Shown here in pieces: positions 11,060 to 36,078 of a DNA stretch of 64,000 bases (the stretch's first letter is position 1; each line of letters opens with the position of its first letter). The stretch covers positions 977,960 through 1,041,959 of the forward strand of contig CP070727.1 of assembly GCA_020350885.1 (NCBI GenBank), in the 5' to 3' direction. Below the pieces are notes generated by a model. It had not been told where the DNA came from and did no database searches. It saw only the letters and a list, made by a program, of their open reading frames with translations. A program made the translations under genes and the position numbers. This DNA comes from a bacterium. Lineage in GTDB: Bacteria; Krumholzibacteriota; Krumholzibacteriia; Krumholzibacteriales; Krumholzibacteriaceae.

Positions 11060-11469
11060 GGCAGACCTCCCTCGCCCGGGTCCGTTTGTAGAGCGTCACG
11101 GTATACAGCCCATCCGATCGTCTATTCCATTAAACAACCGGATGGCCTGTATGATTCCACTATGACCGGGGAGTTCCCCCTTGATGGGAGTATGACACCG
11201 GATAGGCACACTGTGTAGGAAAAAGAAACGGGGCTGAAGGGGGGTACCACAGCGAATCGGAATAGATATAATTTTGTATATGTTATTAGCTTATCGTGCA
11301 TTCTGTCGCGGTCATTTCCTGTTGACCGTGTGCGTCGTATGTGCTATAATTTAATATGATTAAGGACTATCGAATTCTCTCTGCTGGAGGGTCGATAGGA
11401 TGGTATATCTAAATAATGAATGTCGAAACATCCGTATGGATGAATCGTTTTATACCGAAAGGAGTTAGT
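11060..11469. other. 410-base divergent intergenic region
   Basis: Lies between the serpin (minus) and the CBM20 protein (plus). No coding frame is supported. It holds a clear sigma-70 promoter for the rightward gene (listed separately), an AT-rich stretch at 11265-11300, and an inferred untranslated leader of about 110 bases. The serpin's ribosome site is at the left edge. No convincing serpin promoter was recognised. Confidence 0.6.
11322..11350 (+). promoter_or_regulatory. Sigma-70-type promoter for the CBM20 gene
   Basis: TTGACC (11322-11327), a 17-base spacer, then a perfect TATAAT (11345-11350). The predicted start site is near 11357, about 113 bases upstream of the ATG at 11470. Confidence 0.8.
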
Positions 11470-12321
11470 ATGAAGCGGTTGTTAACGGTTCTCTTGGCGG
11501 TTCCGGTACTCCTCGTATGGACGGGAACCGCATTCGCCACGATCGATTGGGCCGGCGAGATCTGGCCCATACACGGGTATACCGTCTCCGAGGGTTCCGA
11601 CGTCGCCATCTACCTGCAGATCTACAAGACAGGTAAGACGGAGCCGGCGGGACAGGGTGACTCCATCTTGGCGACACTGTACTACGGTCCAGAGCTTGGA
11701 CCCTACACATCGGTGGCTATGAGTTACTTAGGCGATGTGGGCAACAACGACGAGTACCGGGGCTTTATTCCGGCGGCCGCGATCGAGGGGCAGGATTCGA
11801 TCTGGTTCTACTGCGAGGCGTACGATTCGACCGATGCTTCGACGTACACCGGCGCAAAGGACCAGAACCAGAATGATCCTCCGTTCGTATTGAACATCAC
11901 GCCGGTGCTGAACCAGGAGGTTACCGTCTGGTTCGGCATGTGCATGCCTCCCGAGGGGGATCCGGACTACGATCCCGATCCGGGCGATATATGCATTACC
12001 GGAAGCACGCCGGAGCTCACGAACTGGGGTAGCGGTGTACTGATGGCACGGCCGTGCGATTGGTACAGCCCGCTCTTCTACCAGGTGTCGGTAACCTTCC
12101 CGGCCGGCAGCAGCCCGTATATCGAGTACAAGTTCAGGAAGTGGGACTGTGTCGAGTGGGAGCCGGGAGGAAACCACAGCGTGATGATCGACGACACGAA
12201 TCCGACCATGCTTATGCCGTGGATCGACCACTTTGGATGGTACGAGGGTGACGATTGTCCGCTCTGTGGAGTAGGAACTGAAACCTCCACCTGGGGGAAG
12301 ATCAAAGGGATCTACAAGTAG
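11470..12321 (+). CDS. Secreted starch-binding protein with CBM20-like domain
   Basis: The 283-residue product has a Sec signal peptide (about residues 1-24), an unassigned beta-rich N-terminal domain (about 25-148) and a C-terminal CBM20-like starch-binding module (about 150-270). That module carries VTVWFGMC, an ELTNWGSG loop and an IEYKFRKWDCVEWEPGGNH strand pair. No catalytic domain is present, so it probably binds alpha-glucan outside the inner membrane. ATG 11470 follows AAAGGAG by five bases; an in-frame ATG at 11416 has no ribosome site. It has its own promoter and terminator, so it is probably monocistronic, and it opens the glucan locus. Confidence 0.78.
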   Translation: MKRLLTVLLAVPVLLVWTGTAFATIDWAGEIWPIHGYTVSEGSDVAIYLQIYKTGKTEPAGQGDSILATLYYGPELGPYTSVAMSYLGDVGNNDEYRGFIPAAAIEGQDSIWFYCEAYDSTDASTYTGAKDQNQNDPPFVLNITPVLNQEVTVWFGMCMPPEGDPDYDPDPGDICITGSTPELTNWGSGVLMARPCDWYSPLFYQVSVTFPAGSSPYIEYKFRKWDCVEWEPGGNHSVMIDDTNPTMLMPWIDHFGWYEGDDCPLCGVGTETSTWGKIKGIYK

Positions 12322-12380: not shown

Positions 12381-12551
12381 CTGTGTATGAGGGGGGTATG
12401 TGACGGCAACGGGATCTTCCCGGTAATCGCTCATCGATGAAATTACACACACAATGTACTTAGAAACCACTTTATATTAGCTATCTAATTAATTGATATG
12501 AAACGAATTACGGCTTTATTAGATAAAGGACGGAAGGAGGAGGCAGGAGCT

Positions 12552-14990
12552 ATGGAAGGCAATCGAAGCAGGGTCACACGAGTCATTCTCATCGTCGGAA
12601 TCCTTGCCCTCGCCGGAGGTTTCTCGCTTCTCATCGGTGGTGTTCCCCAGACGATCACCGTTGACGGATCGAACGATTTCCTGCCGGCGAACCTGGTCGA
12701 TGTCGACGGGGGGGATACACAGTTCTCGCAGCTCGACATCGACACGGTCTATGTGACGAACGATGCGAATAAGCTCTATATCGGTTTCTACTACAACAAG
12801 GGTGGCTGGACGGATGTCCAGCTCTGTGTCGCCATCGCGGTCGGTGACACGGCGGGCGGCACGACGGACGCGTGGGGCCATGCGATCGCATGGAACACGG
12901 CGCCGACGAAGCCGGATTATCAGGCCTGGTGCAATATGGACAACTCGTGGCAGGAGCTCAGGAAATGGAATTCCGGCACCTCGTCGTGGGACACCCCTAT
13001 CAGCGGCACCAGCTCGCTCGGCTGGATCAACAACACCGGTTTTGAGGAGATGGGTCTCAACTTCAGCGACCTCGGGATCTCGATGGGGGACACGGTCTGC
13101 ATCGAGTGGATCGTAACACAGACCGGCGCAACCAAGGGTCCCCTCGATGCCGTCATGAACGACGGGGATCAGTTGAGCAGGCCGAGCGGAACGACGTGGG
13201 ATGTCGGAACACCCGTCGAGCTCGATTCGATGTATTGCTATGTCGTTCAGGTGACGGGAGACACCGATCCGCCTGTCGTTCTCAATGTCGATGATCCTCC
13301 GGGAAGCCTCGTCGAGGCAGGAATAGACGATTTTATTCTTATCTTCAACGAGCCGGTCGACGAGACGACTGCCGAGAATGCCGGTAACTACACGATGCTC
13401 AATACGACAGCCGGTATCGACAGTGTCGTGCGGGATCCCGGCTCCCCGGATCGTGTACATATCTATCTCAATACAACGGTGTATCCCGGCGATTCGATAC
13501 GGGCCGTCGAGGTCGTCAATGTGGAGGATCTCGCGAGCAACGTGATCGTCGACAACGACTCGACCAATATGGGCGACTTCTACGTCAAGGGGGTTCTCTT
13601 CCGGGCCCTCATGAGTCTGCACTTCACGCAGCACTCCTTCCCGACCGACACCGTCACGGTCGAGGGGGATCTGGACGGCCTGACGTGGATCCCGTGCGAC
13701 AATGCGTTCATGACGCACGTCGGCGGCGACGTCTACGAGCAGAACCTCGTGATGATCATCGGCTCCGACGATGGCCAGGGGAATCCCAATAACCCGGATT
13801 CGAGCACCTTCAGCGTCGATTTCGAATGGAAACTCAACCACCAGTGCGCAGAGTACGAGCCGCGGCCGAACCGCCAGAGTACGATCAGTATCTACGGCGG
13901 CCCACGTGATACGCTCGAGGTCTGGTGGAACGACGAGGACGACGAGGACTACACCGATCACCCGATCGATGTGATCTTCACGTGCGACTTCAATATCATG
14001 TCTCCGGGACCGGACAGTGTTGCGGCGATCAACGGGAGCGTCTCTCCCCTCACCTTTGATGTGCCGTCGATGAACAACATGGCCGATGACGGCGTCTATC
14101 CGGACGGAACGGGCAGTGACGGGATCTATGCGATAAAGGTCAGATTCCCGGCGATCTCATTCAAGACGGTGAACTACAAATACCTCTACAACGACGTCTA
14201 CGAGTGTATCGGTATAGGTGACCGCGAGGTCTGGCTTAACGACGCCGCCTTCGATACGGTGGGCGGCACACTCGGGCCCCTCGTGATGCCGGTGCAGTAC
14301 TACGACCGCTGCATCACGATCGGGCGGGCCGTCGAGGTAGTATTCAGAGTGCGCACGCTCGGGATCCCGGATATCGATACGGTCGCGGTCAACGGCACGC
14401 CGAACAATCAGCTTCCCGAGGTGATCAACTGGAACATACCGTCGATCAATCCGATGACGCCAAGCACCAGCTATCCAGGCCATACGCCAGGTGAGGAGGT
14501 TCAGTGGTCAATAAGCATCACGTTCCCCGATTCCTCAGACAAGTACGTCGAGTACAAGTACCTCCACAACTCGAACTACGAATGCGAGGGGCAGGGGAAC
14601 CGGTACTTCTATATCGACGATACATACGATGCGGTCGGCAATCCGCAGATACTTGAGATCGACTACTTCGGCTCGTGCGATCCGACGGATGTGCCCGAGG
14701 AGGTGCCGGTCATTCCGCTCGTTCTCAATCAGAACTATCCGAATCCGTTCAACCCGGTCACGACGATCACCTTCACGGTGCCGGCACGGGAGCGTGCCGT
14801 GCTCCGTGTCTACAACGTCAAGGATGAGCTCGTCAGAACCATCCTCGACAGAGTCGTGGATAGCGGCGAGGTGTCCGTGACGTGGGAGGGGGACGATTCC
14901 AGGGGAAGACGGCTTGTGAGCGGCGTCTACTTCTACGAGTTGCGCGTGGGAACGAAGCGCATGAGCCGCAAGATGGTACTGCTCAGATAG
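12552..14990 (+). CDS. Surface protein with CBM9-like domain, three CBM20-like modules and T9SS-type tail
   Basis: The 812-residue product has a hydrophobic export signal (about residues 10-32). Next comes a CBM9/DOMON-like domain (about 33-233) starting GGVPQTITVDGSNDF, then an SbsA-like Ig domain (about 237-346, FNEPVDETTAENAGNY). Three related modules follow (about 347-450, 471-570, 593-696), each closing with a CBM20-like pattern such as EYKYLHNSNYECEGQGNR. The tail (about 722-812), NQNYPNPFNPVTTITF ... SGVYFYELRVG ... KMVLLR, is a T9SS type A / FlgD-like sorting domain. ATG 12552 is preferred over 12498 because of GGAAGGAGG upstream and alignment with the paralogue at 23639-28924. No catalytic domain is seen. 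Confidence 0.78.
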   Translation: MEGNRSRVTRVILIVGILALAGGFSLLIGGVPQTITVDGSNDFLPANLVDVDGGDTQFSQLDIDTVYVTNDANKLYIGFYYNKGGWTDVQLCVAIAVGDTAGGTTDAWGHAIAWNTAPTKPDYQAWCNMDNSWQELRKWNSGTSSWDTPISGTSSLGWINNTGFEEMGLNFSDLGISMGDTVCIEWIVTQTGATKGPLDAVMNDGDQLSRPSGTTWDVGTPVELDSMYCYVVQVTGDTDPPVVLNVDDPPGSLVEAGIDDFILIFNEPVDETTAENAGNYTMLNTTAGIDSVVRDPGSPDRVHIYLNTTVYPGDSIRAVEVVNVEDLASNVIVDNDSTNMGDFYVKGVLFRALMSLHFTQHSFPTDTVTVEGDLDGLTWIPCDNAFMTHVGGDVYEQNLVMIIGSDDGQGNPNNPDSSTFSVDFEWKLNHQCAEYEPRPNRQSTISIYGGPRDTLEVWWNDEDDEDYTDHPIDVIFTCDFNIMSPGPDSVAAINGSVSPLTFDVPSMNNMADDGVYPDGTGSDGIYAIKVRFPAISFKTVNYKYLYNDVYECIGIGDREVWLNDAAFDTVGGTLGPLVMPVQYYDRCITIGRAVEVVFRVRTLGIPDIDTVAVNGTPNNQLPEVINWNIPSINPMTPSTSYPGHTPGEEVQWSISITFPDSSDKYVEYKYLHNSNYECEGQGNRYFYIDDTYDAVGNPQILEIDYFGSCDPTDVPEEVPVIPLVLNQNYPNPFNPVTTITFTVPARERAVLRVYNVKDELVRTILDRVVDSGEVSVTWEGDDSRGRRLVSGVYFYELRVGTKRMSRKMVLLR

Positions 14991-15101: not shown

Positions 15102-15128
15102 CATGAACACCATTCGGAAACGTTCATG
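15102..15128. repeat. Inverted repeat upstream of the GH13 lipoprotein gene
   Basis: CATGAAC (15102-15108) and GTTCATG (15122-15128) are exact inverted repeats 13 bases apart, in the leader about 70 bases before the GH13 start. A separate 12-bp palindrome, ACTGTATACAGT, lies at 15081-15092. Either could be an operator, but short repeats like these also arise by chance. Confidence 0.3.
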
Positions 15129-15195
15129 TACCATATTGTTCTATGAGGAGTTACAGTATATGGCAGGATTGTGTCCGACGGAGGAGGGATTATCA

Positions 15196-18100
15196 ATGGT
15201 GTCGATTATGTTTCGGAACCGTACCGTCCCGCTCGTGCTGACGGGTTTGGCGATCGGTCTACTCGCTGCGTCGTGCTCACTCGAGCCCCCCGTGAAGACG
15301 CTCGAGGAGGGAAGGGTCGTAGAGAAGGAGATACCTGTCGAGGAGGGAAAGGTAGCCGTCACATTCACCTTCAAGCCGGATGGAACACCGGGCTCGGTCT
15401 ATCTGGCCGGCACCATGAACGACTGGAATTCCTCGAAGGATCGTTTGAGCGATGATGATGGTGACGGCATCTACCAGATCACGCTCGTCCTGGAACCCGG
15501 CTCATACCAGTACAAGTTCGTTATCGACGGGCAGTGGAAGGAGGACCCGGCGGCGTCCTCGTTCGTTGATGACAGGTACGGTGGAAAGAACTCGGTGCTC
15601 GAGCTTGCCGCCGACCAGAGACGGATAACCGTCGGTGTGGGCAAGGGGAAGGCAACGGCCGTGGTGACGAAGAAGGCCGCAAAGAAGCGGGAGGCACCCT
15701 CCGGTGCGGTACGGGTCACATTCCTCTACGAGGTAGGGGCCGGCACGGCGGCGAACGTCTTCCTCGCCGGCACGATAAACGACTGGAGCCCGGACAGCGA
15801 TCCCATGACCGACGACGACGGCGACGGGATCTATGCCATTACATTGGAGCTAGCCCCCGGACGCTACGAGTACAAGTTCGTCCATGACGGGCAGTGGCTG
15901 ACCGATGAGTCCGCCGAGGATTTCACGGACGACGGATTCGGCGGGAAGAACTCCGTACTCAACATCACCCCTGAGGACGCCGATACGGGGCTCATCGTTG
16001 GAATGTTCGAGAGACTTCCCGAGGATTTGGGCGATGCCGGTGCGGTCGTCGGCAGGGAGGGGGACGCGGAGCAGCTCCTCAAGGAGGTGACCTTTCGGTT
16101 TCAGCCGGTGATAAGCGGTGTTCAGAATATCTTCCTGGCCGGCACCTTCAACGACTGGAACGACTCTAAGACGAGGATGACCGACGATAACGGTGACGGC
16201 ATCTACGAGGTGACACTGCTGCTGCCGGTCGGTAGATACCAGTACAAGTTCGTCGTTGACGGGCAGTGGTTTACCGATGAGACGGCCGCCGACTTTGCCC
16301 CCGACGGGTTCGGCGGACAGAACTCGGTCATCAACGTCGACGACAGCTTCAAGGAGGTCCGTTTCGAGCTGGGAGACGGTGAGATGATGACGAGCGATAT
16401 CTCGTCTGCGCTCGACTACTCCATGGTGAATCCGGTGAGCAGGGATCGGATCGAGTTCACGGCACGTGCGCACCGGGACGATGTGGAAAACGTCCAACTG
16501 ATCTACTCGGTCGCGGGGGGCCAGCGGAAGTCGGTCGGGATGGTGCACGCCGAGGCCGATGCGGTATTCCAGTACTACATGGCAGCCCTAGAGGAGCCCG
16601 CCACGGCCGAGATCCAGTTCACCTTCCAGTACAGGGACGGTCAAGCGGCATTTTACGCAACCCCCAAGGGAATCGTGGAGGAGATGCCCGTGGACGACGA
16701 TATGTACGTCTATTCCGACGATATCCTCCCGCCCTTCTTCACTCCCGAGTGGGCGAAGGATGGCGTGTTCTACCAGATCTTTCCGGAACGCTTCCGGAAC
16801 GGAGATCCCGAAAACGATCCAAACTTTAGCGAGCCGTACTATGAGGGAGTGACGAAATTGCCACCCAGCGGCAGGACGAACGGAGAGTACTTCCATTTCG
16901 TACGCAACTGGGGCGATGTGAGCGGGCTTTCGAAGAGCCCGTACCGCACTGATGGAAGACCCGACTACTACTCCTTCTACGGAGGCGATATCGCCGGTGT
17001 AATGGAGAAGCTGCCATACCTCGCAGATCTCGGTGTTACGATCATCTACTTCAATCCGTTGAACCAGGCCCGGTCAAACCACAAGTACGATCCCGTGGAC
17101 TACATGACGATCGATCCCCACTTCGCCGACGAGGAGACATTCAAGGAGTTCGTGAAAGCGGCGCACGAACTCGGTATACGGATCATCGTTGACAAGGCCT
17201 TCAACCATACCGGGAACTGGCATTTCGCCTTCATCGACTCGCGGGACAGGGGGAGGGAGTCGGTCTACTGGGATTGGTACGAATGGAAGCGCTGGCCACT
17301 TCCCGAGGGAGATATCACTAATCCGCTCGATTACTACGACTGCTGGTGGGGATTCGGGATCCATCCGAACCTGAATTTCGATCTCTCGCGGCCGAACAAT
17401 CAGGAGAACGGCATTACCGATGCCGGAATGGCCCAGCCGAATACGGACCTCGTCGAGTACATACTCAATGTCGCACGCTACTGGCTCGGGGAACTCGGCA
17501 TCGACGGTTTCCGTCTCGACGTTCCCAACGAGGTACCCTTCTGGTTCTGGAAGGAGTTCAGGAATGTCGTGGACGAGGTGAATCCCGATGCCTTCCTGAT
17601 CGGCGAGATCTGGGGGAATGCCATGCCGTGGCTCGGTCCGTACGGCTTCCACTCAACGATGAACTACAAGTTTTTCCGCGAGCCGGTGCTCAAGTTCTTC
17701 GCCCTCGGCCAGGGGAGTGCGGCGCAGTTCGACCGTGAGCTCGCTCCGGGCAGGAGCCTCTATCCGAAACAGGCGACACAGGTGATGATGAACCTCGTGG
17801 GCAGTCACGATACCGAGCGGTTTCTCACGATCGCCTCCAACAAGGAAGACCGACTGATGCTTGCCGCACTCTTCCAGATGACTTACCTGGGTATACCCCA
17901 GATCTACTACGGCGACGAGGTCGGGATGAGGGGCGGTAAGGATCCCGATAACCGGCGGCCCTTCACCTGGGGGTGGAAGGAGAATCCCCGGCAGGAGCGG
18001 ATCCATGATTTCTACCGGAAGATCATCGGTATACGTCACACCTATCCCGCGTTACGGACCGGTGCGTTCAGGACGGTGCTTACCGAGGGGAAGGTCTACT

Positions 18101-18312
18101 CGTACCTGCGTGAGGACGATTACGATCGAGTGGTGGTCGTCCTGAACAACGAATCGGTATCGAAGCGGATCGAGCTGCCTCTCGGCGAATTCGGATTTTC
18201 AGACGGTATCCGGTTCGTCGACGAGCTGGGCAGCGGTGAATATCTGGTCGATGGAGGGAGTGTGGCACTCGAGATGCAGCCGATGACCGGCCTCATCCTG
18301 GTGCATCGATGA
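15196..18312 (+). CDS. Neopullulanase/cyclomaltodextrinase-type GH13 lipoprotein with three CBM48 modules
   Basis: Alpha-glucan hydrolase predicted to be membrane-anchored outside the cytoplasm. The 1,038-residue product has a lipobox (LLAASC, Cys27) and three tandem CBM48 modules (about residues 52-138, 171-257 and 296-382). Each module repeats VFLAGTxNDW ... YKFVxDGQW, keeping the glycan-stacking Trp and Lys. A GH13_20-type N-domain (about 388-495) and the catalytic barrel (from about 520) follow. VFYQIFPERFRNGDPENDP is a neopullulanase hallmark. Catalytic residues: Asp775 (GFRLDVPNE, nucleophile), Glu804 (IGEIWG, acid/base), Asp872 (GSHDTERF); region I is DKAFNH. ATG 15196 follows GGAGGAGGG. 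Exact substrate (pullulan, starch or cyclodextrin) is uncertain. Confidence 0.93.
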   Translation: MVSIMFRNRTVPLVLTGLAIGLLAASCSLEPPVKTLEEGRVVEKEIPVEEGKVAVTFTFKPDGTPGSVYLAGTMNDWNSSKDRLSDDDGDGIYQITLVLEPGSYQYKFVIDGQWKEDPAASSFVDDRYGGKNSVLELAADQRRITVGVGKGKATAVVTKKAAKKREAPSGAVRVTFLYEVGAGTAANVFLAGTINDWSPDSDPMTDDDGDGIYAITLELAPGRYEYKFVHDGQWLTDESAEDFTDDGFGGKNSVLNITPEDADTGLIVGMFERLPEDLGDAGAVVGREGDAEQLLKEVTFRFQPVISGVQNIFLAGTFNDWNDSKTRMTDDNGDGIYEVTLLLPVGRYQYKFVVDGQWFTDETAADFAPDGFGGQNSVINVDDSFKEVRFELGDGEMMTSDISSALDYSMVNPVSRDRIEFTARAHRDDVENVQLIYSVAGGQRKSVGMVHAEADAVFQYYMAALEEPATAEIQFTFQYRDGQAAFYATPKGIVEEMPVDDDMYVYSDDILPPFFTPEWAKDGVFYQIFPERFRNGDPENDPNFSEPYYEGVTKLPPSGRTNGEYFHFVRNWGDVSGLSKSPYRTDGRPDYYSFYGGDIAGVMEKLPYLADLGVTIIYFNPLNQARSNHKYDPVDYMTIDPHFADEETFKEFVKAAHELGIRIIVDKAFNHTGNWHFAFIDSRDRGRESVYWDWYEWKRWPLPEGDITNPLDYYDCWWGFGIHPNLNFDLSRPNNQENGITDAGMAQPNTDLVEYILNVARYWLGELGIDGFRLDVPNEVPFWFWKEFRNVVDEVNPDAFLIGEIWGNAMPWLGPYGFHSTMNYKFFREPVLKFFALGQGSAAQFDRELAPGRSLYPKQATQVMMNLVGSHDTERFLTIASNKEDRLMLAALFQMTYLGIPQIYYGDEVGMRGGKDPDNRRPFTWGWKENPRQERIHDFYRKIIGIRHTYPALRTGAFRTVLTEGKVYSYLREDDYDRVVVVLNNESVSKRIELPLGEFGFSDGIRFVDELGSGEYLVDGGSVALEMQPMTGLILVHR

Positions 18313-18837: not shown

Positions 18838-21069
18838 TCAAAATTTAAATATAGCCCGCAGTGTGACGACTGCCTTGTCCGCAAGCGCCTCTTCCGAGCG
18901 GAACATAGCCTCGCTGCTCAGCAGATACGACTCCAGGTTCGGTGTACCGACCAGGTACCGTGTTCTCGCCCAGTCACCGTACTGGACATGCTCCGTCGCT
19001 CCCTCTCGGAGATATTCCTGCCTGAAGTTGTACCGGCCTGTGTGGCGTCCCTCGTAGTCGATACCGAAGTCGAGCGGGTCGAGGCCGAATGCGAGAACGA
19101 GATCGACCTTCTTCGTCGGTGTGTACTCGATGCCGACGAAGGGGGCCGTAAAGAGCCTTGCTCTGTCGAGCACCGCATCGTCCAGGTAGATGTTCCTGAT
19201 ATCGAAGATGGCCGAAAGCCGATCGGTCAACCTGAACGATCCCCGGAGTATCGCCTCGAACGATGTGAGGTCGACCCTCCCGAAATCCGCTCCGTTGTCT
19301 CCCCCGACCTGCCCCGCATAGGACGTTCTACCCTCGTAACGCCGGTACTGGGATTCCAGCTCCAGGTCGACGGCCTTCAGGGGCTTCCACCTCAGGCCCG
19401 GCGATATCGAGAGGATGTACAGCCAGAGCGGCCAGTTGGGGATATCCATCTCGGTGAGAAAACGTTCGCACCGGAGATTCGCTCCAAAATATGTTTCGTT
19501 CCAGGAGCATGTGAGTTCGCTATGGCTCACCGTATGGCCCTGCGGTGCTAAGGACCAAGATATTCCAAACAGCTTGTTGGCCTCGCTCTCCGGACGGAAG
19601 AGGTAGTTCCAGGTAACAACTTCCCCCTCGGTAGGATGAATGACCTCCATCCTGGAGTGCTTGGCATGTATCTCGAGGCCTTCGATCGCATAGAGGCGCA
19701 CCGAGCCGTGGGCGATCCACAGGTCGCGCTCGAGTATCGGCACGTCGATCGGTCCGTTGCCTCCTTCGAACCCCGAGTTGTTTCCCGTCACGAATCCCTG
19801 GTCGATCGCGCCTCGGAGGTATTCGAACTGCGGGATCAGGCGGTCTTCGAGGAGGTGCAGGGTGAAGTCTGGTCCGAAGAGGTAATACCTATCCTGGAAC
19901 TCGAACCAATCGCTGTTGTCCTGTTTGCTGTTGAGATATTCGTTCAGCTGTGGAATGCTGGTTTCGGCCGGAAGTGTGCCTGCGCCCGATATGTTGGACC
20001 AGTACAGGTTTCGCTCCATGAAGAAGTTGCCACCGACCGTAAGCTTCATAGGCTCTATGGGCAGTACCTCCCAGAGGTTTGCAAAGAGGCGGGCGTGTAT
20101 GAGGTCCGTGCCGATGTTATCGAAAAGATCGGGATCGTTGTAGAAATCGTGGTCGTGCATGTTGGCGATAAAGCCGTGCAGCCCGAACCACCCCTGATCG
20201 CTGGTCACGACTGCCCCCGCCGTGCCCTTGCCGAGTTTCAGGTGGTCGTCGCCGATCGTTCCCGGAAGATCGATGTCGCCGAAGAGTGCCAGTGGATCGG
20301 TCGAGCTCAAGGCCTCCCTGTTGTAGTATCCCGTAAGCGTGAACTGTGCCGGATTGATCTCGATGTGCGCTTCATCCATGAAAGCGGATATGTTGTTTGG
20401 TTGCAATAGGTTACGCTCGCTGTCGATCCTGAGACGTGTGTAGCCGTGAACCATGTCGCTGATCGTGATCCTGAAGTTGAAATCGACGTTCTGCACCGGT
20501 CGCTGCACCCGCCACCGTTCATCGTCCTCGATCCCCTTCTCGGTCTTCGTCCGTGAGAGGTATCGACCGCCGATATTGACCCGGGCACTGAGCGGGGTGT
20601 TTGAGATCGGGCGCGCCTCGGCCTTCGAAACCAATTCACCCTTGCTGTCGATCTCGACGACCGAATTCATCCCGCCGTAGGGATCCGATTTCGTGTTTGG
20701 ATTGTCGATATCGGTGATCCACGCGCCGTCGACGACGAACTTGTACTCGTGCTCACCGGATCCGAGTTCGAGAACAACCGTCCAGTATCCCTCCTCGTCC
20801 CTGCTCAGGGGTGTGGCGGTGGTGCTCCATCCGTTCATGGTGCCTGCCAGATGCACCTGGCCGGCATCGGGATCGTAGTAGGTGAACTTGATACCCTCGT
20901 CGGTCTTCTCGACCGCGCCCTCGGCCATCGCACAGAGGGAGAAGAGCACGCAGAGGACTAGACTGATCGTTGGAAGGATTCCGTCATGGACGCGGGCGGT
21001 TTGGTATCGCGATCTCCCGCCGCCTCGATCCTTTGTTCCGGTTTCGGTTCTGTTCGTGTAACGCTTCAT
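18838..21069 (-). CDS. Outer-membrane beta-barrel protein with N-terminal CBM48
   Basis: The 743-residue product has a signal peptide (about residues 30-51), a CBM48 module (about 55-141; QVHLAGTMNGW ... HEYKFVVDGAW, binding residues intact) and a roughly 600-residue region of alternating amphipathic strands. It ends in Phe (TLRAIFKF), the usual beta-barrel insertion signal. There is no TonB box or plug domain, so it is not SusC-like. I infer a porin-type barrel that holds or admits glucan; transport has no direct sequence proof. AAGGGATGAG precedes the ATG. It lies 11 bases after the preceding barrel gene and 24 bases before the CBM48 lipoprotein. Confidence 0.75.
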   Translation of the reverse strand: MKRYTNRTETGTKDRGGGRSRYQTARVHDGILPTISLVLCVLFSLCAMAEGAVEKTDEGIKFTYYDPDAGQVHLAGTMNGWSTTATPLSRDEEGYWTVVLELGSGEHEYKFVVDGAWITDIDNPNTKSDPYGGMNSVVEIDSKGELVSKAEARPISNTPLSARVNIGGRYLSRTKTEKGIEDDERWRVQRPVQNVDFNFRITISDMVHGYTRLRIDSERNLLQPNNISAFMDEAHIEINPAQFTLTGYYNREALSSTDPLALFGDIDLPGTIGDDHLKLGKGTAGAVVTSDQGWFGLHGFIANMHDHDFYNDPDLFDNIGTDLIHARLFANLWEVLPIEPMKLTVGGNFFMERNLYWSNISGAGTLPAETSIPQLNEYLNSKQDNSDWFEFQDRYYLFGPDFTLHLLEDRLIPQFEYLRGAIDQGFVTGNNSGFEGGNGPIDVPILERDLWIAHGSVRLYAIEGLEIHAKHSRMEVIHPTEGEVVTWNYLFRPESEANKLFGISWSLAPQGHTVSHSELTCSWNETYFGANLRCERFLTEMDIPNWPLWLYILSISPGLRWKPLKAVDLELESQYRRYEGRTSYAGQVGGDNGADFGRVDLTSFEAILRGSFRLTDRLSAIFDIRNIYLDDAVLDRARLFTAPFVGIEYTPTKKVDLVLAFGLDPLDFGIDYEGRHTGRYNFRQEYLREGATEHVQYGDWARTRYLVGTPNLESYLLSSEAMFRSEEALADKAVVTLRAIFKF

Positions 21070-21080: not shown

Positions 21081-22679
21081 TTAGAAGTACAGTTTCAGAA
21101 ACATCTTGATCCGGTGATCGATGCGATCACTCGAGCCCTCATTCACGAAGTGATCGGTATGAACCAGATGCTCGCTTTTCCACGGATCGCCGTATTCGAC
21201 GAAGAACTCGGCTCCCCATCCAATGTCATAGCGGACCTGGGCAAAGACGGTCGCACGCGCCTCCGTCTCCTCGTTGACATTGAGGATGCGGAAGTATCCC
21301 TTGAGCTTTCCGGTGGCGTTGAACTCTACATCGAAGCCGTAGGCGAAGACCTCGCGGAAGGTGTTGAAGTCACGGATACGGCTCTGAATCCGGACCTTTG
21401 CCAGTTTGTTCTCCACCGAGAGCTCGGCAACGATGTTGGGATAGGTGAAGAAGTCGAAGACCTCGCCGGATCCATCGAATCCGTGCCAGCGGTTATAGGC
21501 GATCTTTCCCCGGAAGCCCTTGATGAATTCGACGTAGAGCTCGGTATAGAGGTTGTAGGTGGGACGGAGAAGACCGCCCTCCTCATCGACGATGCGTTTC
21601 TTGTAAAAGTCGTATGCCACAATGGCCGTGATCGCCTTCTTCGGCACGAGGTAGATCCCCTCGATGTGGTACTGGCGGCGGTTGAACTCGCGGTCCTCGT
21701 CGAAGCGCCGCGACAGGTAATCACGGAAATTTTCTCCAAAATCGTTGTACCATGCATGAATAATCAAATTCTGGAGGCGCACGTTTCTGATCTCCGCGGC
21801 GAAGACGTATCGGTTCTTGTTGGTGCGCACATCACTCGTCTCTACCTGGAACGGATCGCGGCTCATCGCATACTCTGTTATGAAGCTTGCATTCTCCAGG
21901 TTCAACGGACCGAGGGACAGCCCACCCTCGACGATGTTTCTCGGATAGATGGAGACGTCGAATGCGAGAACCTCGTTAAAGCTGCTGCTGAGGTACTGTT
22001 TCGTAACGTTTGTGTTCGTCCAGTCCTTGCGCAGGAATGTCGATCCCACCTCGAGCCGGTCGCCGAACGATTTCTTCCGCAGACGGAAGATGAGGTTGTC
22101 TGTGCCGTCGGCCACGGCCAGATCCGGGTCGTCGGTCCAGTTGAATGTGCCCCCGTCGTCGAAGTAGATAAGGGTGCCGCCGAGCCCCCTGAGCCTCCAG
22201 AGATCGACGTTCCAGAAATCCGCCCTGATACCGCTCGATTGCGGGCCCCAGTTGTCGTTCTTGAGCTTATCCTGCTCTACGAGGCGCAGGAGTGGTTCGT
22301 CGTGTATCCAGAACCTGTTCTGGCGGGCGAAGATGAATGTTTCCCACTTTTCACCGCGGAACTTGAGGTGGCCTTCGGCCGCGAGGTACGGTGGGCTCTT
22401 ATACTCGATGTCCGGTGTGAGGGATTCGTCCCGGTTCGATTGCGCCCGGAGCTTGAAGAATCCTTCCAGGTTCGTGTAGGGCCAGGTGAGGTACTTGAGC
22501 TCGAGATAGTGCCGCGGCTGTCCCTCACCGCTGCCCGGGCCGAACTGCCAGCGTTGCTCCATGCGCTGGAAGGAGGCTTCGACCTCGTAGAATCCCTCGA
22601 GCTTGTTGACGGCGTACGCCCCGCTGGAGGCGAGGACCACGCACACGAAGAAAGCGAATGCCGTGATGTTCCGTTTCAT
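21081..22679 (-). CDS. Predicted outer-membrane beta-barrel protein
   Basis: The 532-residue product has a clear signal peptide (MKRNITAFAFFVCVVLASS, about residues 1-24). The rest is a run of amphipathic strands rich in Tyr, Phe, Arg and Asp, ending KMFLKLYF with a terminal Phe. No named family is recognised. The charged, aromatic-rich strands resemble porins for sugars. An in-frame extension to 22835 overlaps the upstream gene; ATG 22679 gives the signal peptide and an ATGA overlap with it, so translation is coupled. It sits between a PorV-like barrel and a CBM48 barrel, which suggests a role in glucan passage (inference). Confidence 0.68.
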   Translation of the reverse strand: MKRNITAFAFFVCVVLASSGAYAVNKLEGFYEVEASFQRMEQRWQFGPGSGEGQPRHYLELKYLTWPYTNLEGFFKLRAQSNRDESLTPDIEYKSPPYLAAEGHLKFRGEKWETFIFARQNRFWIHDEPLLRLVEQDKLKNDNWGPQSSGIRADFWNVDLWRLRGLGGTLIYFDDGGTFNWTDDPDLAVADGTDNLIFRLRKKSFGDRLEVGSTFLRKDWTNTNVTKQYLSSSFNEVLAFDVSIYPRNIVEGGLSLGPLNLENASFITEYAMSRDPFQVETSDVRTNKNRYVFAAEIRNVRLQNLIIHAWYNDFGENFRDYLSRRFDEDREFNRRQYHIEGIYLVPKKAITAIVAYDFYKKRIVDEEGGLLRPTYNLYTELYVEFIKGFRGKIAYNRWHGFDGSGEVFDFFTYPNIVAELSVENKLAKVRIQSRIRDFNTFREVFAYGFDVEFNATGKLKGYFRILNVNEETEARATVFAQVRYDIGWGAEFFVEYGDPWKSEHLVHTDHFVNEGSSDRIDHRIKMFLKLYF

Positions 22680-23608
22680 AATCGAATCGTAGCTGCGAAC
22701 TGATAAGTATTTCCGAGCTCGTAGTGTGTTTCCAGCATCACATCGATCTGCCATCTGTTGTGTTTGAGACCGAAGCCCCCCGTCATGTTCTCCTGTTCGA
22801 ATCCACCGCGAAGGGCGACCGCCTCGAAGAACCATATCTCGCTTCCGATCCGCCCGACGGTATTGTCCAAGTCACCGTACCTGGATTTAATATCGTAGCT
22901 TACGAGAAGCAAGTCCCTGAACTTGTAGCTGACCCCGATGGCGATGTCACGATAGACGGGATCGGGATGAACGGTCGTCTTCAACAACTTGAGTTTCGGT
23001 TCGTTGATGTTGTAGACGACGGCGCCGATCGTCCATCGGTGTTTCGATCGGTAATGGATCCCGAGATCGAAGCTCGGCTTGACATCACGTCCTTCGTAGG
23101 CCGGATCGTTGTACTTCTCGTAGCCCGGAGCGGAGAGGGAGAAGATCTTTACGCTACCCCCGATAGAGAGCCCCTTGATGAAGGGCGCCTTCCGTGCGAT
23201 GGCGAAGTTGATCGTATCCTCGTGGTATATATCCTCGAGATCGAGCCGAACCCAGCTGACACCGAAGGCGGCGACGCCATGCCAGTGGTACGCTCCGCTG
23301 ATGTAATCGTTGGAGAGGTTGTCGACCGCATAGAGGAGTGTTCTGCACCCGGTGACCTCGAACCGTTCGATATGTGTTATACCCGCCGGGTTCCAGTAGA
23401 CCGCATTCACATCATCCGCCACTCCCACGAATGCCGAGCCCATGGCCCTGGGACGCGGTCCCATACGGGCATGACGGAAGTCGGCCCATCCCTGGTTGGA
23501 GGGGAGGATGACGGCGAGAAGAGATACGATGCCGATGACAGAACGGCGCAAACCCCGGCTAGCTCCTTCTGCTGATAACACGTTATTGCAATAGGTTACG
23601 CCAATCAT
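22676..23608 (-). CDS. PorV/PorQ-like outer-membrane protein (FadL superfamily)
   Basis: The 310-residue product has a signal peptide and then ARMGPRPRAMGSAFVGVADDVNAVYWNPAGI, split here as RPRAMGSAFVGVADD and NAVYWNPAGI, which is the N-terminal hallmark of PorV/PorQ and FadL-type barrels. The remainder is beta-strand rich and ends AATIRL. PorV proteins shuttle substrates of the type IX system, which would fit the T9SS-like tails on neighbouring surface proteins. ATG 23608 lacks a ribosome site; a TTG at 23548 with AAGGAG upstream also gives a good signal peptide. It overlaps the next barrel gene by four bases. Confidence 0.72.
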   Translation of the reverse strand: MIGVTYCNNVLSAEGASRGLRRSVIGIVSLLAVILPSNQGWADFRHARMGPRPRAMGSAFVGVADDVNAVYWNPAGITHIERFEVTGCRTLLYAVDNLSNDYISGAYHWHGVAAFGVSWVRLDLEDIYHEDTINFAIARKAPFIKGLSIGGSVKIFSLSAPGYEKYNDPAYEGRDVKPSFDLGIHYRSKHRWTIGAVVYNINEPKLKLLKTTVHPDPVYRDIAIGVSYKFRDLLLVSYDIKSRYGDLDNTVGRIGSEIWFFEAVALRGGFEQENMTGGFGLKHNRWQIDVMLETHYELGNTYQFAATIRL

Positions 23609-23638: not shown

Positions 23639-26600
23639 TTATTTAATGACGGCCACCGCTGCGTTCTGCCGTATCGTTCGCCGTCCTGCCGCCTGTGCGA
23701 AATTCACCGTGAAGCGGGCGATGTAGATGCCATATGGAACGACCCTGCCGGCACCGTCCCTGCCATCCCAGATGATACCGGTGATCCGTCTCGGCTTCTT
23801 GTCCAGAACATCCTCGGCGGTGAAGGATACCCTCTCTTCGAGGATCTGGACGCGTGTGCCCTCTATGTCGAAGATCTCGATCGTAACCACCGCCTCCTCC
23901 GCCAGGTAGAAGCTGATATTCGTCTCCTCGTAGAGGCCGTCACCGTTCGGCGAAAACGGGTTCGGCGAGAAGGCTATTCCCGAGAAGACCTCGTTTGGAT
24001 CGTAATTGAAGCTGGGGTTGTAGAATACGCCGTATGTACCGAGCCTGAGGATCTCAATGGTGATCAGGTTACCGAAGGGGTTCACGTTCCCACCGAGGTA
24101 GATCCATGTATTCGTCGTGTGGTTGTACTCGTAGGCGGCGAGCAGGTTCTCATCGAGGCCTTCAATCGAGTATTCCGGATAGTGGAGCGATATACGGGTC
24201 AGCCCCTCTAGTCGCTCGAGCGGGATCGGATCCATCCCCCCGCCCGGCGTGGCGAAAAGCTCGAGTGTTCTGATGACGTTGATCGAGGTTGCTCCCCCCT
24301 GGGGAAGGTTGAATTCCGAGAGATCCCGGGGACTGAGTCGGAAGGTGAACGGTATGCCGTCGAGATACTCGGGGACCACCTCGTGCGGTATGGAGATGAA
24401 TGTGCCCTCGGGCGCTCTCGCCTCGAAGTCCCGGCCGAGATCGATTCCCGTGATCTCGTACGTTGCGATCGGCTTCAGGATCTCCATCGTATAGAGGGGT
24501 GTAACGGCGATATTTCCGGATGGGTCCCGGGCCTCGATGATGAATTCGATATTTCTCGTGCTGTCGAGGTCGGCCACCGGTACGGTGGCAGTGATCTCGT
24601 CCACCGGCAGGTCGACGCTCCAGATCTCGCCGCCTGCGTACCCCATCTCGATCTCCCCCATCCACACACCGCCAAGATTCGTGTCTGCCTGCCACATGAA
24701 CGTGGCCCGGGAGACCTCGTCGTCGTCGCTGATGACGGCGGTGTAGTAGAGGGGTGCATTGATAAGGGCGATGTAGGGGACCGTCTCCTCGATGATCTCG
24801 CTGATACTGATCACGGGGGGCCCCTGATCCTCGAAGGCGGTCGCTTCGAGAACCACCGCCGTCTCTCCCCTCTCGGACCGTTTGACGGCCTCACGGCTCT
24901 TGTAGTTCAGCAGATCGCTCTGGCTCCGGCCCGCCTTCTTGCCGAGCCCCGGGGAGGTGACCATATCGATGATGTTCGGGTCGCGATCACTGTCGAGACC
25001 GCCGCAGAACCTCCATTCGCAGTCGGAGGCGTCGTTCACCCACCGGGTATCCCCGAAGTTGTTGTCGTCGCTGTGACCATCGTGGCTCGTCATGAGCACC
25101 GTGATATCCCACTTGAGGATATCCTGCTCGGTCGGATTTCCGAGGGCATCCTTGGAGACGATGGCGGTTATCGTGTTCTGGTTGTAATCGGAGAGGAGCA
25201 CGATGTCATTGTCGCCCTTTCTCGCGGTCGACGACCATGCCGCCGGAGTATTCTGGTTGTTCGATGTAATAACCCCCTTGTACCAGCCATCCATGACGAT
25301 GGCGTAATCCCATGCATCCCACTTTGCGAAGTCGTTCTGCCGGTTCGGCAGCCCCTCGGTGGCACCTCCCTTGAGGGCGTCGATATAGATGTCGATCTTC
25401 TGTATGTTGATGTCCGCATAGGTGGGGTTCCAGTCGGCGGTTCCCTCGTCGGCTGGATTCGGAAAGTTTCCCATCCGGACCATGAAGGCGTAGCTGGGGA
25501 TGACCTCGCCGCCGAAGATGTTGGTCGTCTCGAAGATGACGACCTCTTCCAGATCGAAGGCACCGAGCACGAAGACAACGTTCGAGGGATAATTATAGTA
25601 GAGGCCGGTCCTGCCGAAAAGGTTCGGCCCGTGATCGTCGCCGGTCTCGTCGGTGATCCTTCGTATCGGCTCGAAGGCCCCCTCGACATCGATAATGACC
25701 GTGGTCACGTTTCCATTGATGTTGAGAGAATCCCTGGCCGTGATCTGGAGCTCGTACGAGCCCGTCGAGATGTCGGGTGCGACGAGGTGCTGGTGGCTGT
25801 AGGTTCCGTCACCGGGAGTTACATCGCCGTTCGTGCCGTCGTCCTTCATACGCTGGAAACGGGGTCCGCCGAGTGGGGAGAGGTCGATGTAGACATTGCC
25901 GATGCCGTCATCCGCATCGGTCAACGTCGCCGTGAATCTCACCATACCGCCCGCCTGCACCTCTGTGGGTTCCACCCTGCGGGATGAGATCACCGGTGCG
26001 CCCGGAAGGATGAGAGGGGGGGAGTAGTAGTGAAGAACGAGATCCGGCTGTTCGAATCCCCAGTCCGCCGGTTCCTCCTCGAGATCGAGTGTCGAATCGT
26101 GGGGGGACGAATCGAAGGGTCCGTGCTTGTATGGAATGTCATTGATATATACCTCGTACATAATGTAGACCTGTGCTCGGAGGGAGATCGGTGTCCTCCC
26201 CCGGAACACCCGGTAGGGGATCGTGTACTCTACGTACCCGGGCCCCTTCTCCACCCACGATTCCCTGACGTTAATCGTCTCGACGTAATTGCCGAGATCG
26301 CTGGTCGAGATGTAGGTCTTCGAGCCGTCATCCCACCAGTTCCATTCGTCGTTCGCCCATTTTCTGAAGTCTGCGTATTCGTCGGATGTATACTTGTACG
26401 TGAATGTGTACTCCGGTCTCAGGGAATGACCGTAACGGATCGGAAACTCGAACGGGTCACTCGGAGCTCCGGCGGCATCGCCTCCCGTCTCCAGGATCGT
26501 TGCGATGTGCACATTCCCGACCGACCAGGTACTCGAGAAGTCGATGGTCACCTTGAATCCCTCGAGGCTCGTCTGTACAGAGACATCGGTCAGATCCATC

Positions 26601-28924
26601 TGCTCGAGCGTGTTGTGCGCCGGGTCTGGCTCGGGCCAGGAGGGATCGCTGAAGGAGATCGTTGAGATCTGCTCTATGAAGAATGTCGTTCCCTCGACGG
26701 GGAACGCACCGGCCGTACCGTCGATCTCGACGATGCCCGGTCTACTTCCGGCGGAAAATTCCGCGACGACCTTTCCGTCGGCATCGAAGTCCGCCGAAAG
26801 TGGTGTTAGGGTACCGGCGGAAACGGGGTAGTAGGTAAATGTGATCGATCCCCCCGCTTGGGGTACCGCGTTCCCATAGACGTCTATCTTCTGCGCCTCG
26901 ATCGGCATCGTTTCGTTGATACCCATCGATGACATTGTGCTCGTTATCCTGATCGCGTCCACCGGTCCCGGAACAACGGTAACCTCGACAAACTCACCCC
27001 CCTCATCACCGATCATTCCCAGTTCCTTGTTTCCGTAGAAAGCTGTCGCCCGGATCAAGAGTTTGCCGGCGATTGTGGCCGTGAGCGACGTGAAGAATTC
27101 GCCGTTCGCCGATGTCTCGGTTGATGGAATCGTGAAGGTTCCCTGGCCCGTCGAGCTCTGATCGAATGAGAAGTTCACCTCTACGCCGGCTATCCTCACC
27201 GGATTGAGGTTTATATCGAGTAGCTGTCCACGGATGACGACCTCGTCGGTGCCGTCTGCTACGACGGTGTTCTCGACTGCGTAGAGCTCGAAGTACTCCG
27301 GTTCCGGTGAACGGATGCCGATCTTGAATCGTCCCGTAATGGTAGTGTCCGCGTTCTCGACAAAGACCCGCAACACCTCGATTTCGTCATCCCTGAGGAG
27401 GAAGCTGCCCCTTCCGTCCGTAAGCCGGATCGACTCCGTCTGAACGGTATCGGTCTCGAAAAAGATCAGGTCTCCCCGGGGTTGCGAATAATTATTGAGC
27501 TTCGTTGCACGAAGGTTTATGGGATCGAGCCGGTCATCCAGGTCGAAGAGGTCCCGGCGGTCGGAATCGTCCCTCGCCTCGATCGTCATCTCTGCGTAGA
27601 AGAATATACCGGAGTCGGGAATGCTGATCGTGGTCGCCGTGCTGAGGATCTCCGTGCCGTCGACATCGATCAGTACGAGTTTCGTCGCCCTGACCGCCGA
27701 TAGCTCCAGGATACCGACATGGATGCTGTCGTTCCCGGCAACCTGCACCATGGCCGTATCGGCTATGTATCCCGGCGCTGCGGCGACGACATGGAAGGTT
27801 CCGACGGGGGCGAGGATCTGGAAATCTCCGGCGGTTGGGAGGATTGTCCGGGCATCCTCGTCGGGAATCTCACCAGTCGCACTGTCGTAGGCCGCGACGG
27901 CAATCTCACCCCCCGGTCCCTCGGAGAAGACCACTTCGCCGGTAATCTTGCCGACGCGGGGGAGGACGAAGTCGATGTTTCGCACGGTATCCTGACTCAC
28001 GACGATGCCTGGCTGCCTGATCCTCGAGTAGCCTTTGGCCCGGGCCTCGACGAAGTACGGACCGTCGGGGAGACCGCCGATGAGGTAAGCACCCCCGCCG
28101 GGCTCCGTCTGGACGGTCCGTATGAGTTGATCGGTCTCTTCATCGAAAGCCGATACGGTCGCAACCGTCTGGTCGTCGAGAGGATCGATATACGTCACCG
28201 TTCCCTCGATCGCCCCGATGGGTAGCTGCTCGAGGACATAGGCGAACATCGAATCGAGCTCGACCGGTTCGCCGACATCCCAGGTCGTCCCGCTAGGCCT
28301 GCTGAGCTGGTCGCCGTCGTTGACCATGCAGTCGAGGGGACCCTTCGATCCGCCCTCTTGCGTCGAGACGATCTCGATGTATACCGTATCGCCGATCGAG
28401 ACCCCCAAGGTATCGAGACCGATGCCGATCTCCTCGAAGCCGGTGTTGTTGGCCCAGCCGAGCGACTGCTCTCCATCATAGATTGCATCCCACGAGGATG
28501 TTTCCCCGTTCCACTTTCTGAGCTCCTGCCAGGTGTTGTCCATGTTGCACCAGGCCTGGTAATCGATCTTCGTGGGCGCCGTGTTCCATGCGACCGCATG
28601 CCCCCACGCGTCCGTCGTGCCGCCCGAGGTATTGCCGACGGCGATCATGATGCCGAGCTGGTTGCCGTTCCAGCCGCCCTTGTCGTACTCGAATCCGATA
28701 TAGAGCCTCTCGTCATCGTGTGTGATGTAGACGGAACCGATGTCGATCTGGGAGTGTTCGGTGTCACTAACGTCTTCATCGACCAGGTTTACGGGGAGGA
28801 AATCGTTTGTGCCGTCGACGACGATCGTCTGTGGAACCCCGCCGACAAGCAGTGACAGGACGCCCGCGAAGGCGATCAATCCAAACCCGACAAGTATAGT
28901 TGTGAAAATGTTGCTTCTGGTCAC
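23639..28924 (-). CDS. Giant glucan-associated surface protein with glucodextranase-C-like module
   Basis: The 1,761-residue product has an export signal (about residues 1-30) and a CBM9/DOMON-like domain (about 33-232) very similar to that of the protein at 12552-14990. Two carboxypeptidase-regulatory-like folds (about 235-403), a long linker, two invasin-type Ig domains (about 553-655, 653-755) and further E-set regions follow. A module at about 1085-1325 resembles the C-terminal domain of glucodextranase and amylopullulanases (ETGDDHGPNLFG ... YPSNVVFVLGAFDLEEV). It ends with a FlgD/T9SS-like tail (about 1646-1761, FSPNPFSPNGDGLYEETNI ... YGIYIARF). No catalytic domain is seen. Start is GTG with GAGG upstream. 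Probably a surface adhesin or scaffold for alpha-glucan. Confidence 0.75.
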   Translation of the reverse strand: MTRSNIFTTILVGFGLIAFAGVLSLLVGGVPQTIVVDGTNDFLPVNLVDEDVSDTEHSQIDIGSVYITHDDERLYIGFEYDKGGWNGNQLGIMIAVGNTSGGTTDAWGHAVAWNTAPTKIDYQAWCNMDNTWQELRKWNGETSSWDAIYDGEQSLGWANNTGFEEIGIGLDTLGVSIGDTVYIEIVSTQEGGSKGPLDCMVNDGDQLSRPSGTTWDVGEPVELDSMFAYVLEQLPIGAIEGTVTYIDPLDDQTVATVSAFDEETDQLIRTVQTEPGGGAYLIGGLPDGPYFVEARAKGYSRIRQPGIVVSQDTVRNIDFVLPRVGKITGEVVFSEGPGGEIAVAAYDSATGEIPDEDARTILPTAGDFQILAPVGTFHVVAAAPGYIADTAMVQVAGNDSIHVGILELSAVRATKLVLIDVDGTEILSTATTISIPDSGIFFYAEMTIEARDDSDRRDLFDLDDRLDPINLRATKLNNYSQPRGDLIFFETDTVQTESIRLTDGRGSFLLRDDEIEVLRVFVENADTTITGRFKIGIRSPEPEYFELYAVENTVVADGTDEVVIRGQLLDINLNPVRIAGVEVNFSFDQSSTGQGTFTIPSTETSANGEFFTSLTATIAGKLLIRATAFYGNKELGMIGDEGGEFVEVTVVPGPVDAIRITSTMSSMGINETMPIEAQKIDVYGNAVPQAGGSITFTYYPVSAGTLTPLSADFDADGKVVAEFSAGSRPGIVEIDGTAGAFPVEGTTFFIEQISTISFSDPSWPEPDPAHNTLEQMDLTDVSVQTSLEGFKVTIDFSSTWSVGNVHIATILETGGDAAGAPSDPFEFPIRYGHSLRPEYTFTYKYTSDEYADFRKWANDEWNWWDDGSKTYISTSDLGNYVETINVRESWVEKGPGYVEYTIPYRVFRGRTPISLRAQVYIMYEVYINDIPYKHGPFDSSPHDSTLDLEEEPADWGFEQPDLVLHYYSPPLILPGAPVISSRRVEPTEVQAGGMVRFTATLTDADDGIGNVYIDLSPLGGPRFQRMKDDGTNGDVTPGDGTYSHQHLVAPDISTGSYELQITARDSLNINGNVTTVIIDVEGAFEPIRRITDETGDDHGPNLFGRTGLYYNYPSNVVFVLGAFDLEEVVIFETTNIFGGEVIPSYAFMVRMGNFPNPADEGTADWNPTYADINIQKIDIYIDALKGGATEGLPNRQNDFAKWDAWDYAIVMDGWYKGVITSNNQNTPAAWSSTARKGDNDIVLLSDYNQNTITAIVSKDALGNPTEQDILKWDITVLMTSHDGHSDDNNFGDTRWVNDASDCEWRFCGGLDSDRDPNIIDMVTSPGLGKKAGRSQSDLLNYKSREAVKRSERGETAVVLEATAFEDQGPPVISISEIIEETVPYIALINAPLYYTAVISDDDEVSRATFMWQADTNLGGVWMGEIEMGYAGGEIWSVDLPVDEITATVPVADLDSTRNIEFIIEARDPSGNIAVTPLYTMEILKPIATYEITGIDLGRDFEARAPEGTFISIPHEVVPEYLDGIPFTFRLSPRDLSEFNLPQGGATSINVIRTLELFATPGGGMDPIPLERLEGLTRISLHYPEYSIEGLDENLLAAYEYNHTTNTWIYLGGNVNPFGNLITIEILRLGTYGVFYNPSFNYDPNEVFSGIAFSPNPFSPNGDGLYEETNISFYLAEEAVVTIEIFDIEGTRVQILEERVSFTAEDVLDKKPRRITGIIWDGRDGAGRVVPYGIYIARFTVNFAQAAGRRTIRQNAAVAVIK

Positions 28925-30710: not shown

Positions 30711-31610
30711 TCATCGCATCGCCGCGGCGAGTGCGCCGGCCACCCTTCGCATATTACCGATGTAATCCCGGTCCAGCGGATCGATCGGTACGACACTGCC
30801 ACCGATCTCACCGGCGACGACCTTCGCACTCTTGCTGCTGAATTGGGGCGATGCAAAGACCACGGTGACACCTCTCTCCCTGGCGAGTGTGATGAGAAGT
30901 CTGATATCGCGTGCCGTCGGCTCTTTCCCTTTCTTCTCGATCGCGATCTGTTTCAAACCGTAGTCTCTCGCGAAGTATCCCCAGGCAGGATGGAACACGA
31001 TGAACTCCCGCTTTCTTGCACCTTCGAGTGTGCGGGTGATGGCATTGTCCACGGCGTGCAGCTCTTCCAGATACGATGCCGTATTGGCCCGGTAGTATTC
31101 CCTGTGGTTCGGATCGACCGCAACAAGTGCTTCATGGATCTGCTCGACCATGATCATCACGTTCTTGGGGGATACCCATATGTGTGGATCGAGGTGTTCG
31201 CCTTCGCCCGTGTCGTCTGCGTTTCCGTGATGATGCGGGAGTTTTGCAGCCTCTATCCTTTCAGATAGATTCACCACGTGCATCCGGGGATTGACGGAAC
31301 GCACCTTTTCAAACCATGCGAGTTCGAATTCTATGCCTGAGCCGACCTTGATGTAGATCTGCGCCCTGCTCACGTCGACGAGCTGGCTGGGCTTCGGCTC
31401 GTATGTGTGTGGATTCGCACCGGGCGGCACCATAACCGTCACACGAACGTATTCTCCGCCGATGCGTTCGACGAATTGCGCCTGCGGGGCAACGGTAACG
31501 GCCACGCCGATCGTTCCGTTCTCGGGCCTGTGTCTGCCGCATCCAGCGCATACCATGAAGATAAGGAACAAGAGTCCGAATATGCCCGGATTGTATCGAA
31601 CGGTTTTCAC
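30711..31610 (-). CDS. znuA: Metal-binding lipoprotein of the ABC importer (ZnuA-like)
   Basis: Cluster A-I substrate-binding protein. The 299-residue product has a signal peptide with a CAGC lipobox-like site, the NPHTYEPKPSQ segment with the first metal His, and a His/Asp-rich loop (LPHHHGNADD ... HLDPHIW) usual for zinc binders. A later VFHPAWGYFARDYGL supplies another His. GTG 31610 is chosen because GGAAGG lies nine bases upstream and it gives a normal signal length. The His-rich loop favours zinc over manganese. No Zur box was recognised. Confidence 0.9.
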   Translation of the reverse strand: MKTVRYNPGIFGLLFLIFMVCAGCGRHRPENGTIGVAVTVAPQAQFVERIGGEYVRVTVMVPPGANPHTYEPKPSQLVDVSRAQIYIKVGSGIEFELAWFEKVRSVNPRMHVVNLSERIEAAKLPHHHGNADDTGEGEHLDPHIWVSPKNVMIMVEQIHEALVAVDPNHREYYRANTASYLEELHAVDNAITRTLEGARKREFIVFHPAWGYFARDYGLKQIAIEKKGKEPTARDIRLLITLARERGVTVVFASPQFSSKSAKVVAGEIGGSVVPIDPLDRDYIGNMRRVAGALAAAMR

Positions 31611-31709
31611 GATCACCCACCTTCCGTATCCCTGCGGGTCGAATCGGATGCTACCATAGAACGCCACGCCCGTTCAAGTGGCCTGCTCGAGCATGTGGGA
31701 TTATCTTCA

Positions 31710-31738
31710 TTGAAAATGTCACCATCGGTCTCTACAAT
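31710..31738 (+). promoter_or_regulatory. Sigma-70-type promoter for the sugar-binding protein gene
   Basis: TTGAAA (31710-31715), a 17-base spacer and TACAAT (31733-31738). The start site would be near 31745, about 85 bases before the GTG at 31830, in the divergent gap with znuA. Confidence 0.72.
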
Positions 31739-31829
31739 AATTATAAACTGGATGAGAAGACATCGGTACCGGCTGTTAGGCATGGATCGGGAGGTAGGAA
31801 CATTGAACGGAAACTTGGGAGGGCCATTC

Positions 31830-36070: not shown

Positions 36071-36078
36071 GGGGGAAC

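Follow-up and report, generated by a model that had tools for sequence, protein, structure and literature searches.

The gene P0001, which lies in a starch locus of a Krumholzibacteriota genome, encodes an N-terminal CBM48 module with intact glucan-contact residues joined to a C-terminal domain predicted to be an outer-membrane β-barrel; the CBM48-barrel fusion is real and is conserved in Krumholzibacteriota. We give an even chance to the reading that P0001 is a barrel with a periplasmic glucan-binding CBM48 that acts in the outer-membrane step of a starch/maltodextrin uptake route independent of SusCD and LamB. All coordinates are positions in the window, the 64,000-nt stretch of this genome that was analysed, unless another locus is named. 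The parts of P0001 are as follows:

18838..21069, minus strand: P0001 CBM48-barrel coding sequence, a single 743-aa ORF with a C-terminal Phe
20920..21069, minus strand: N-terminal leader and signal peptide, residues 1 to ~50, without a lipobox (from the sequence)
20644..20907, minus strand: CBM48 / AMPK1_CBM domain, residues 55-142 (Pfam, alignment)
20827-20829 and 20740-20742, minus strand: contact residues W81 and K110
20719-20721 and 20665-20667, minus strand: contact residues W117 and N135
20584..20643, minus strand: linker, residues 143-162 (AF2 model)
18841..20583, minus strand: predicted outer-membrane β-barrel domain, residues 163-743, ~22 strands, C-terminal Phe (AF2, Foldseek)

The signal peptide was read by eye from the sequence, in which no lipobox was found, and translation may in fact begin at a codon inside the leader. 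A conserved family of relatives rules out a chance ORF or artefact. The CBM48 region matches PF16561 (AMPK1_CBM; residues 68-142, E=4.8e-14) and PF02922 (CBM_48; residues 55-132, E=2.8e-12), with scores above both curated Pfam cut-offs (52.8 bits vs 26.8, and 47.2 vs 22.4). A sub-threshold Pfam match to the pullulanase X25 module lies inside the same region, and NCBIfam gives only partial matches for P0001, between its CBM48 region and glycogen-branching enzymes. The best sequence relatives in the PDB are the glycogen-binding modules of AMPK β (E ~1e-9), and residues W81, K110, W117 and N135, which we take to be the equivalents of W100, K126, W133 and N150 in AMPK β1 numbering, are all invariant among 13 aligned P0001 relatives. 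These matches and residues bear out the first-pass annotation, which had proposed a CBM48 fusion with intact glucan contacts. The W/K/W set is retained in all 25 CBM48 domains from 17 relatives of the starch-locus barrel, and the intact contact residues suggest that the P0001 CBM48 is a functional α-glucan binder. P0001 shares this module and its contact residues with the CBM48 proteins AMPK β, SEX4 and GH13, but those are a kinase, a phosphatase and a hydrolase, whereas P0001 appears to be a membrane barrel.

Residues 163-743 have no Pfam, NCBIfam or PDB family match by sequence, no sequence relative of P0001 with a known transport function was found, and neither P0001 nor its neighbor P0002 has a convincing sequence relative of known structure for its barrel. 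AlphaFold2 (AF2), run on mature P0001 with 12 relatives, returned a model of medium confidence (pLDDT 72.4, pTM 0.65) in which a β-sandwich (residues 51-143) is followed by a linker and by long strands from residue 163 to the C-terminus. When the model was compared with the PDB by Foldseek, every one of the 50 best matches was an outer-membrane barrel (best E 1.5e-9); they include Fiu, FemA, PirA, ZnuD and the MtrB complex; since TM values to known barrels are only ~0.25-0.45, the class of fold is supported but its detail is not. Hydrophobicity alternation along the strands exceeds that of shuffled sequences (p 0.02), and a C-terminal Phe β-signal is present in all complete relatives. The C-terminal domain is thus supported as a predicted outer-membrane barrel of ~22 strands, and the earlier suggestion of a C-terminal barrel ending in Phe agrees with the structure prediction.

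The strands were merged by hand into 22, a count that rests on the medium-confidence model. With this assignment the odd loops average 20.8 aa and the even turns 3.8 aa (11 long loops vs 10 short turns; Mann-Whitney p 2e-4), and among relatives the even turns are near-constant in length and several odd loops are variable. Because of this loop/turn pattern and the even strand count, both termini should be periplasmic. The pattern is predicted to place the CBM48 in the periplasm or in the barrel lumen, and its most likely position in the model is in the periplasm, at the inner mouth of the barrel; two tandem CBM48s are present in 8 of 17 relatives, which argues against both of them serving as a lumen plug. 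It is therefore improbable that the CBM48 grips extracellular starch. The first-pass annotation had spoken of a "tethered porin" and had left the side of the CBM48 to structure prediction; the barrel, the glucan contacts and the setting in a starch locus agree with that phrase, but the loop/turn alternation makes a surface tether doubtful, and it had been only a guess. Two odd loops, residues 251-281 and 307-318 (20116-20319, minus strand), are conserved above the level of the barrel strands, which is unusual for porins; these predicted extracellular loops carry the motifs PGTIxxDHLxxGKG and YNDPDLFDN, and their conservation suggests a functional or partner-binding role.

The genes of interest around P0001 are these:

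11416..12321, plus strand: protein with a borderline CBM20 starch-binding match
12498..14990, plus strand: 830-aa protein with a FlgD_ig / T9SS-like tail
15103..18312, plus strand: GH13 amylase, likely a lipoprotein (AASC), with three N-terminal CBM48s with intact binding residues
18370..18819, minus strand: small CBM48 protein, 149 aa, with a lipobox-like LEGC and intact contact residues
21081..22679, minus strand: P0002, a second barrel-like protein, likely start M53 of a 584-aa ORF
22676..23608, minus strand: PorV/PorQ-family (FadL-like) outer-membrane protein, 310 aa (Pfam, NCBIfam)
23639..28924, minus strand: P0006, a 1761-aa surface protein with CarboxypepD_reg, Big_1/Invasin_D3, choice_anch_X and Glucodextran_C domains and a C-terminal CHU_C/T9SS-like tail (weak)
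31407..33140, plus strand: sugar-type solute-binding protein (MalE-like)
37608..39332, plus strand: two ABC permeases (MalF/MalG-like; 37608-38483 and 38484-39332)
39451..40557, minus strand: MalK-like ATPase (ABC_tran, OB_MalK, TOBE_2)
40673..43207, plus strand: debranching amylo-α-1,6-glucosidase (GDE_C)

P0001 is the fourth of five genes in the order T9SS-tailed surface protein, PorV-like protein, P0002, P0001 and CBM48 lipoprotein, and the gaps between them (30, -4, 11 and 18 bp) make it very probable that they form one operon. The amylase gene is convergent to this operon with 57 bp between them, and most relatives of the small CBM48 protein carry LAGC-type lipoboxes. P0006 is a candidate glucan receptor. 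A GMP synthase C-terminal/NAD synthase-like protein and a glycerophosphodiester phosphodiesterase (35105-37556, plus strand) lie between the solute-binding protein and the Mal-type permeases. Rfam and terminator scans found nothing. P0002 is highly conserved and has no Pfam, NCBIfam or PDB relative; its model, which is of low confidence, gives weak fold matches to porins, AlgE and maltoporin. The P0001 model does not give such porin/maltoporin-like matches, so P0001 might not itself be the channel. The idea that the two barrels are copies of one another was rejected, since no homology between them is detectable; a working partnership between them is plausible.

A scan of GTDB genome contigs with one narrow peptide pattern, which does not in itself prove restriction to the phylum, found 12 relatives of P0001, and those with taxon titles are all Krumholzibacteriota/Krumholzibacteriia. 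The barrel profile was matched in 41 of 80 Krumholzibacteriota genomes at E<=1e-8 and in 30 at E<=1e-25; one of the 30 (G034) holds a barrel fragment, so that full-length relatives number ~29 of 80. Barrel and amylase occur together in 27 of these genomes, the barrel alone in three, the amylase alone in one and neither in 49 (Fisher p 7e-17, with shared ancestry ignored), and in 18 genomes the two lie on one contig within 9 kb. In the single amylase-only genome (G011) the P0002 copy stops ~230 bp before the contig end, so its barrel was probably cut off. The corresponding counts for barrel and P0002 are 29/1/2/48, and wherever the two genes share a contig, which is the case in 28 genomes, they are same-strand neighbors. 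The order P0006, PorV-like protein, P0002, barrel, CBM48 lipoprotein recurs in many relatives, usually with the amylase nearby. No relatives were found on plasmids, and a PHROGs search gave no match.

The locus resembles the Bacteroidota Sus system (SusC/D/E/F/G) in that a barrel, surface starch-binding proteins and a lipoprotein amylase are encoded together, with starch as the target. It differs in that the genome has no match to SusD (PF07980) and that P0001 is plugless and carries its binding domain on the same polypeptide as the barrel, in a position predicted to be periplasmic. P0001 contains no TonB plug (PF07715), and all four TonB-plug matches in the genome lie outside the window; with the plug missing, its identification as a TonB-dependent transporter or SusC was rejected. 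As in the enterobacterial LamB/MalEFGK system, a maltodextrin-type ABC importer is close by and an outer-membrane channel is expected, but P0001 has no sequence relation to LamB, which is an 18-stranded trimer without a CBM, and the genome has no LamB match (PF02264). LamB and SusCD, both absent by profile, were accordingly rejected as the uptake route of this locus. The nearest architectural precedent is found in the CBM9-DUF5916 proteins, which have an N-terminal carbohydrate-binding-like domain and a long C-terminal domain that presumably forms a barrel. Two are encoded in this genome (L092:1483-4194 and L093:1249-4128), but their CBM family is a different one and their C-terminal domain is not matched by P0001 (no PF19313 match).

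A paralogous module is present at a second locus of the same genome:

L074:8266-10659 (G000:C1 about 1270265-1272658): paralogous CBM48-barrel (645 aa) and CBM48 lipoprotein

This locus begins with genes for an S8 protease with a T9SS tail, PPDK, a CDP-alcohol phosphatidyltransferase (PgsA-like) and a DUF4388 protein, and continues with a PorV-like protein, a 501-aa protein, the CBM48-barrel, the CBM48 lipoprotein and then an Ig-type protein. The module is conserved across the phylum without an amylase. Its barrel is homologous to that of P0001 (hhalign 99.7%, E 5e-27, 462 columns); the 501-aa protein was rejected as a P0002 homolog, the relation not being detectable. The Lys and second Trp are lost in 8 of 11 copies of the paralogous CBM48, whose binding residues are degraded in this genome. 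The remaining three copies, in which both residues are kept, belong to other families of the class, and their genomes lack the amylase at the cut-off used. The intact site is thus universal in the starch-locus copies, and the contrast with the paralogs is partial because three of the 11 keep these residues. As judged from these sequences, the CBM48-barrel plan serves more than starch. The fusion had been called unusual at the outset, and the literature that we searched describes neither this locus nor a fusion of CBM48 to a barrel, so the design is undescribed as far as those searches reach; it is not a one-off, however, but a phylum-wide family with a conserved operon and a paralogous module.

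In the uptake reading, P0006, the CBM48 lipoproteins and the CBM48 amylase would bind and cut starch, and the barrel pair P0001/P0002 would pass maltodextrins through the outer membrane. The P0001 CBM48 at the inner mouth would hold the arriving chain, which would favor inward movement and hand-over; the MalEFGK-type proteins would then import the maltodextrin, and the debranching enzyme would finish its breakdown. The reading builds on the fusion, the intact binding residues, the barrel-type fold of the model, the operon-like arrangement and the co-occurrence with the amylase; from these we infer glucan binding, a role in transport, the periplasmic side and the P0001/P0002 partnership. The modest model (pLDDT 72, TM ~0.4) and the amylase-free paralogous module with 8 of 11 sites degraded count against it. 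A fuller version would be an undescribed machine, in which a plugless 22-strand barrel whose CBM48 grips the chain from the periplasm works together with another barrel and a PorV-like protein and replaces SusCD/LamB, the module being re-used at the second locus for another ligand; this we offer tentatively, as possible but on the doubtful side.

The T9SS translocon SprA-PorV-Plug (T9SS background, PMC10994853) offers a further comparison, as P0001 has PorV-family and T9SS-tailed neighbors and the T9SS plug model holds a CBM48-like stretch. The papers that we consulted call T9SS Bacteroidota-specific, and the SprA homolog of this genome (G000:C1:3268043-3272491) is in Krumholzibacteriota. P0001 could be a structural component of a T9SS/PorV-linked complex whose task is to assemble or anchor the giant surface protein encoded beside it. 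Its CBM48 would then be mainly a docking or plug-like part, with glucan binding as a secondary property that the paralogs may have lost. The starch and paralogous loci do share the order PorV-like protein, 500-580-aa protein, CBM48-barrel, CBM48 lipoprotein, and both lie next to giant Ig/T9SS-tailed proteins; their barrels are homologous (the hhalign result above), SprA is present, and the T9SS plug model matches the amylase CBM48s (E 5e-16) and has a weak match to the small lipoprotein of the paralogous locus. P0001 itself, however, matches neither the T9SS plug model (NF052315, at E 0.1) nor the SprA model, and SprA is encoded elsewhere; docking alone would not require W/K/W in every starch-locus copy, nor does it fit the near-perfect co-occurrence of barrel and amylase, and we regard such a structural role as rather unlikely. 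An outward-facing CBM48 that tethers starch to the cell surface, with the barrel as anchor or porin, would suit the intact binding residues, the position of the CBM48 directly after the signal peptide, the presence of two CBM48s in some relatives and the need to meet starch outside; as the loop/turn pattern and even strand count place both termini in the periplasm and P0001 has no lipobox, this arrangement seems improbable. Finally, the AlgE alginate-export barrels among the matches of the P0002 model could point to a locus that makes or exports α-glucan, or handles an envelope glucan, instead of taking up starch. That model is of low confidence, and the GH13 amylase, debranching enzyme and MalEFGK-type importer nearby are catabolic, which leaves little room for this last possibility.

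A study of a coal seam reports that, among the glycoside hydrolases of a Krumholzibacteriota bin, those for starch/glycogen had the highest gene abundance (PMC10936416). The passage of large α-glucans through the outer membrane is, to our knowledge, largely undescribed for bacteria that lack SusCD and LamB. P0001, a predicted barrel with its own putative glucan-binding domain in a conserved starch operon, is a direct, testable candidate for this step in a little-studied phylum. Two barrel-like protein families that Pfam does not cover are named here, together with a PorV/barrel/CBM48 module that has been re-used, and the P0001 family would represent a variant among glycan-utilisation outer-membrane proteins.
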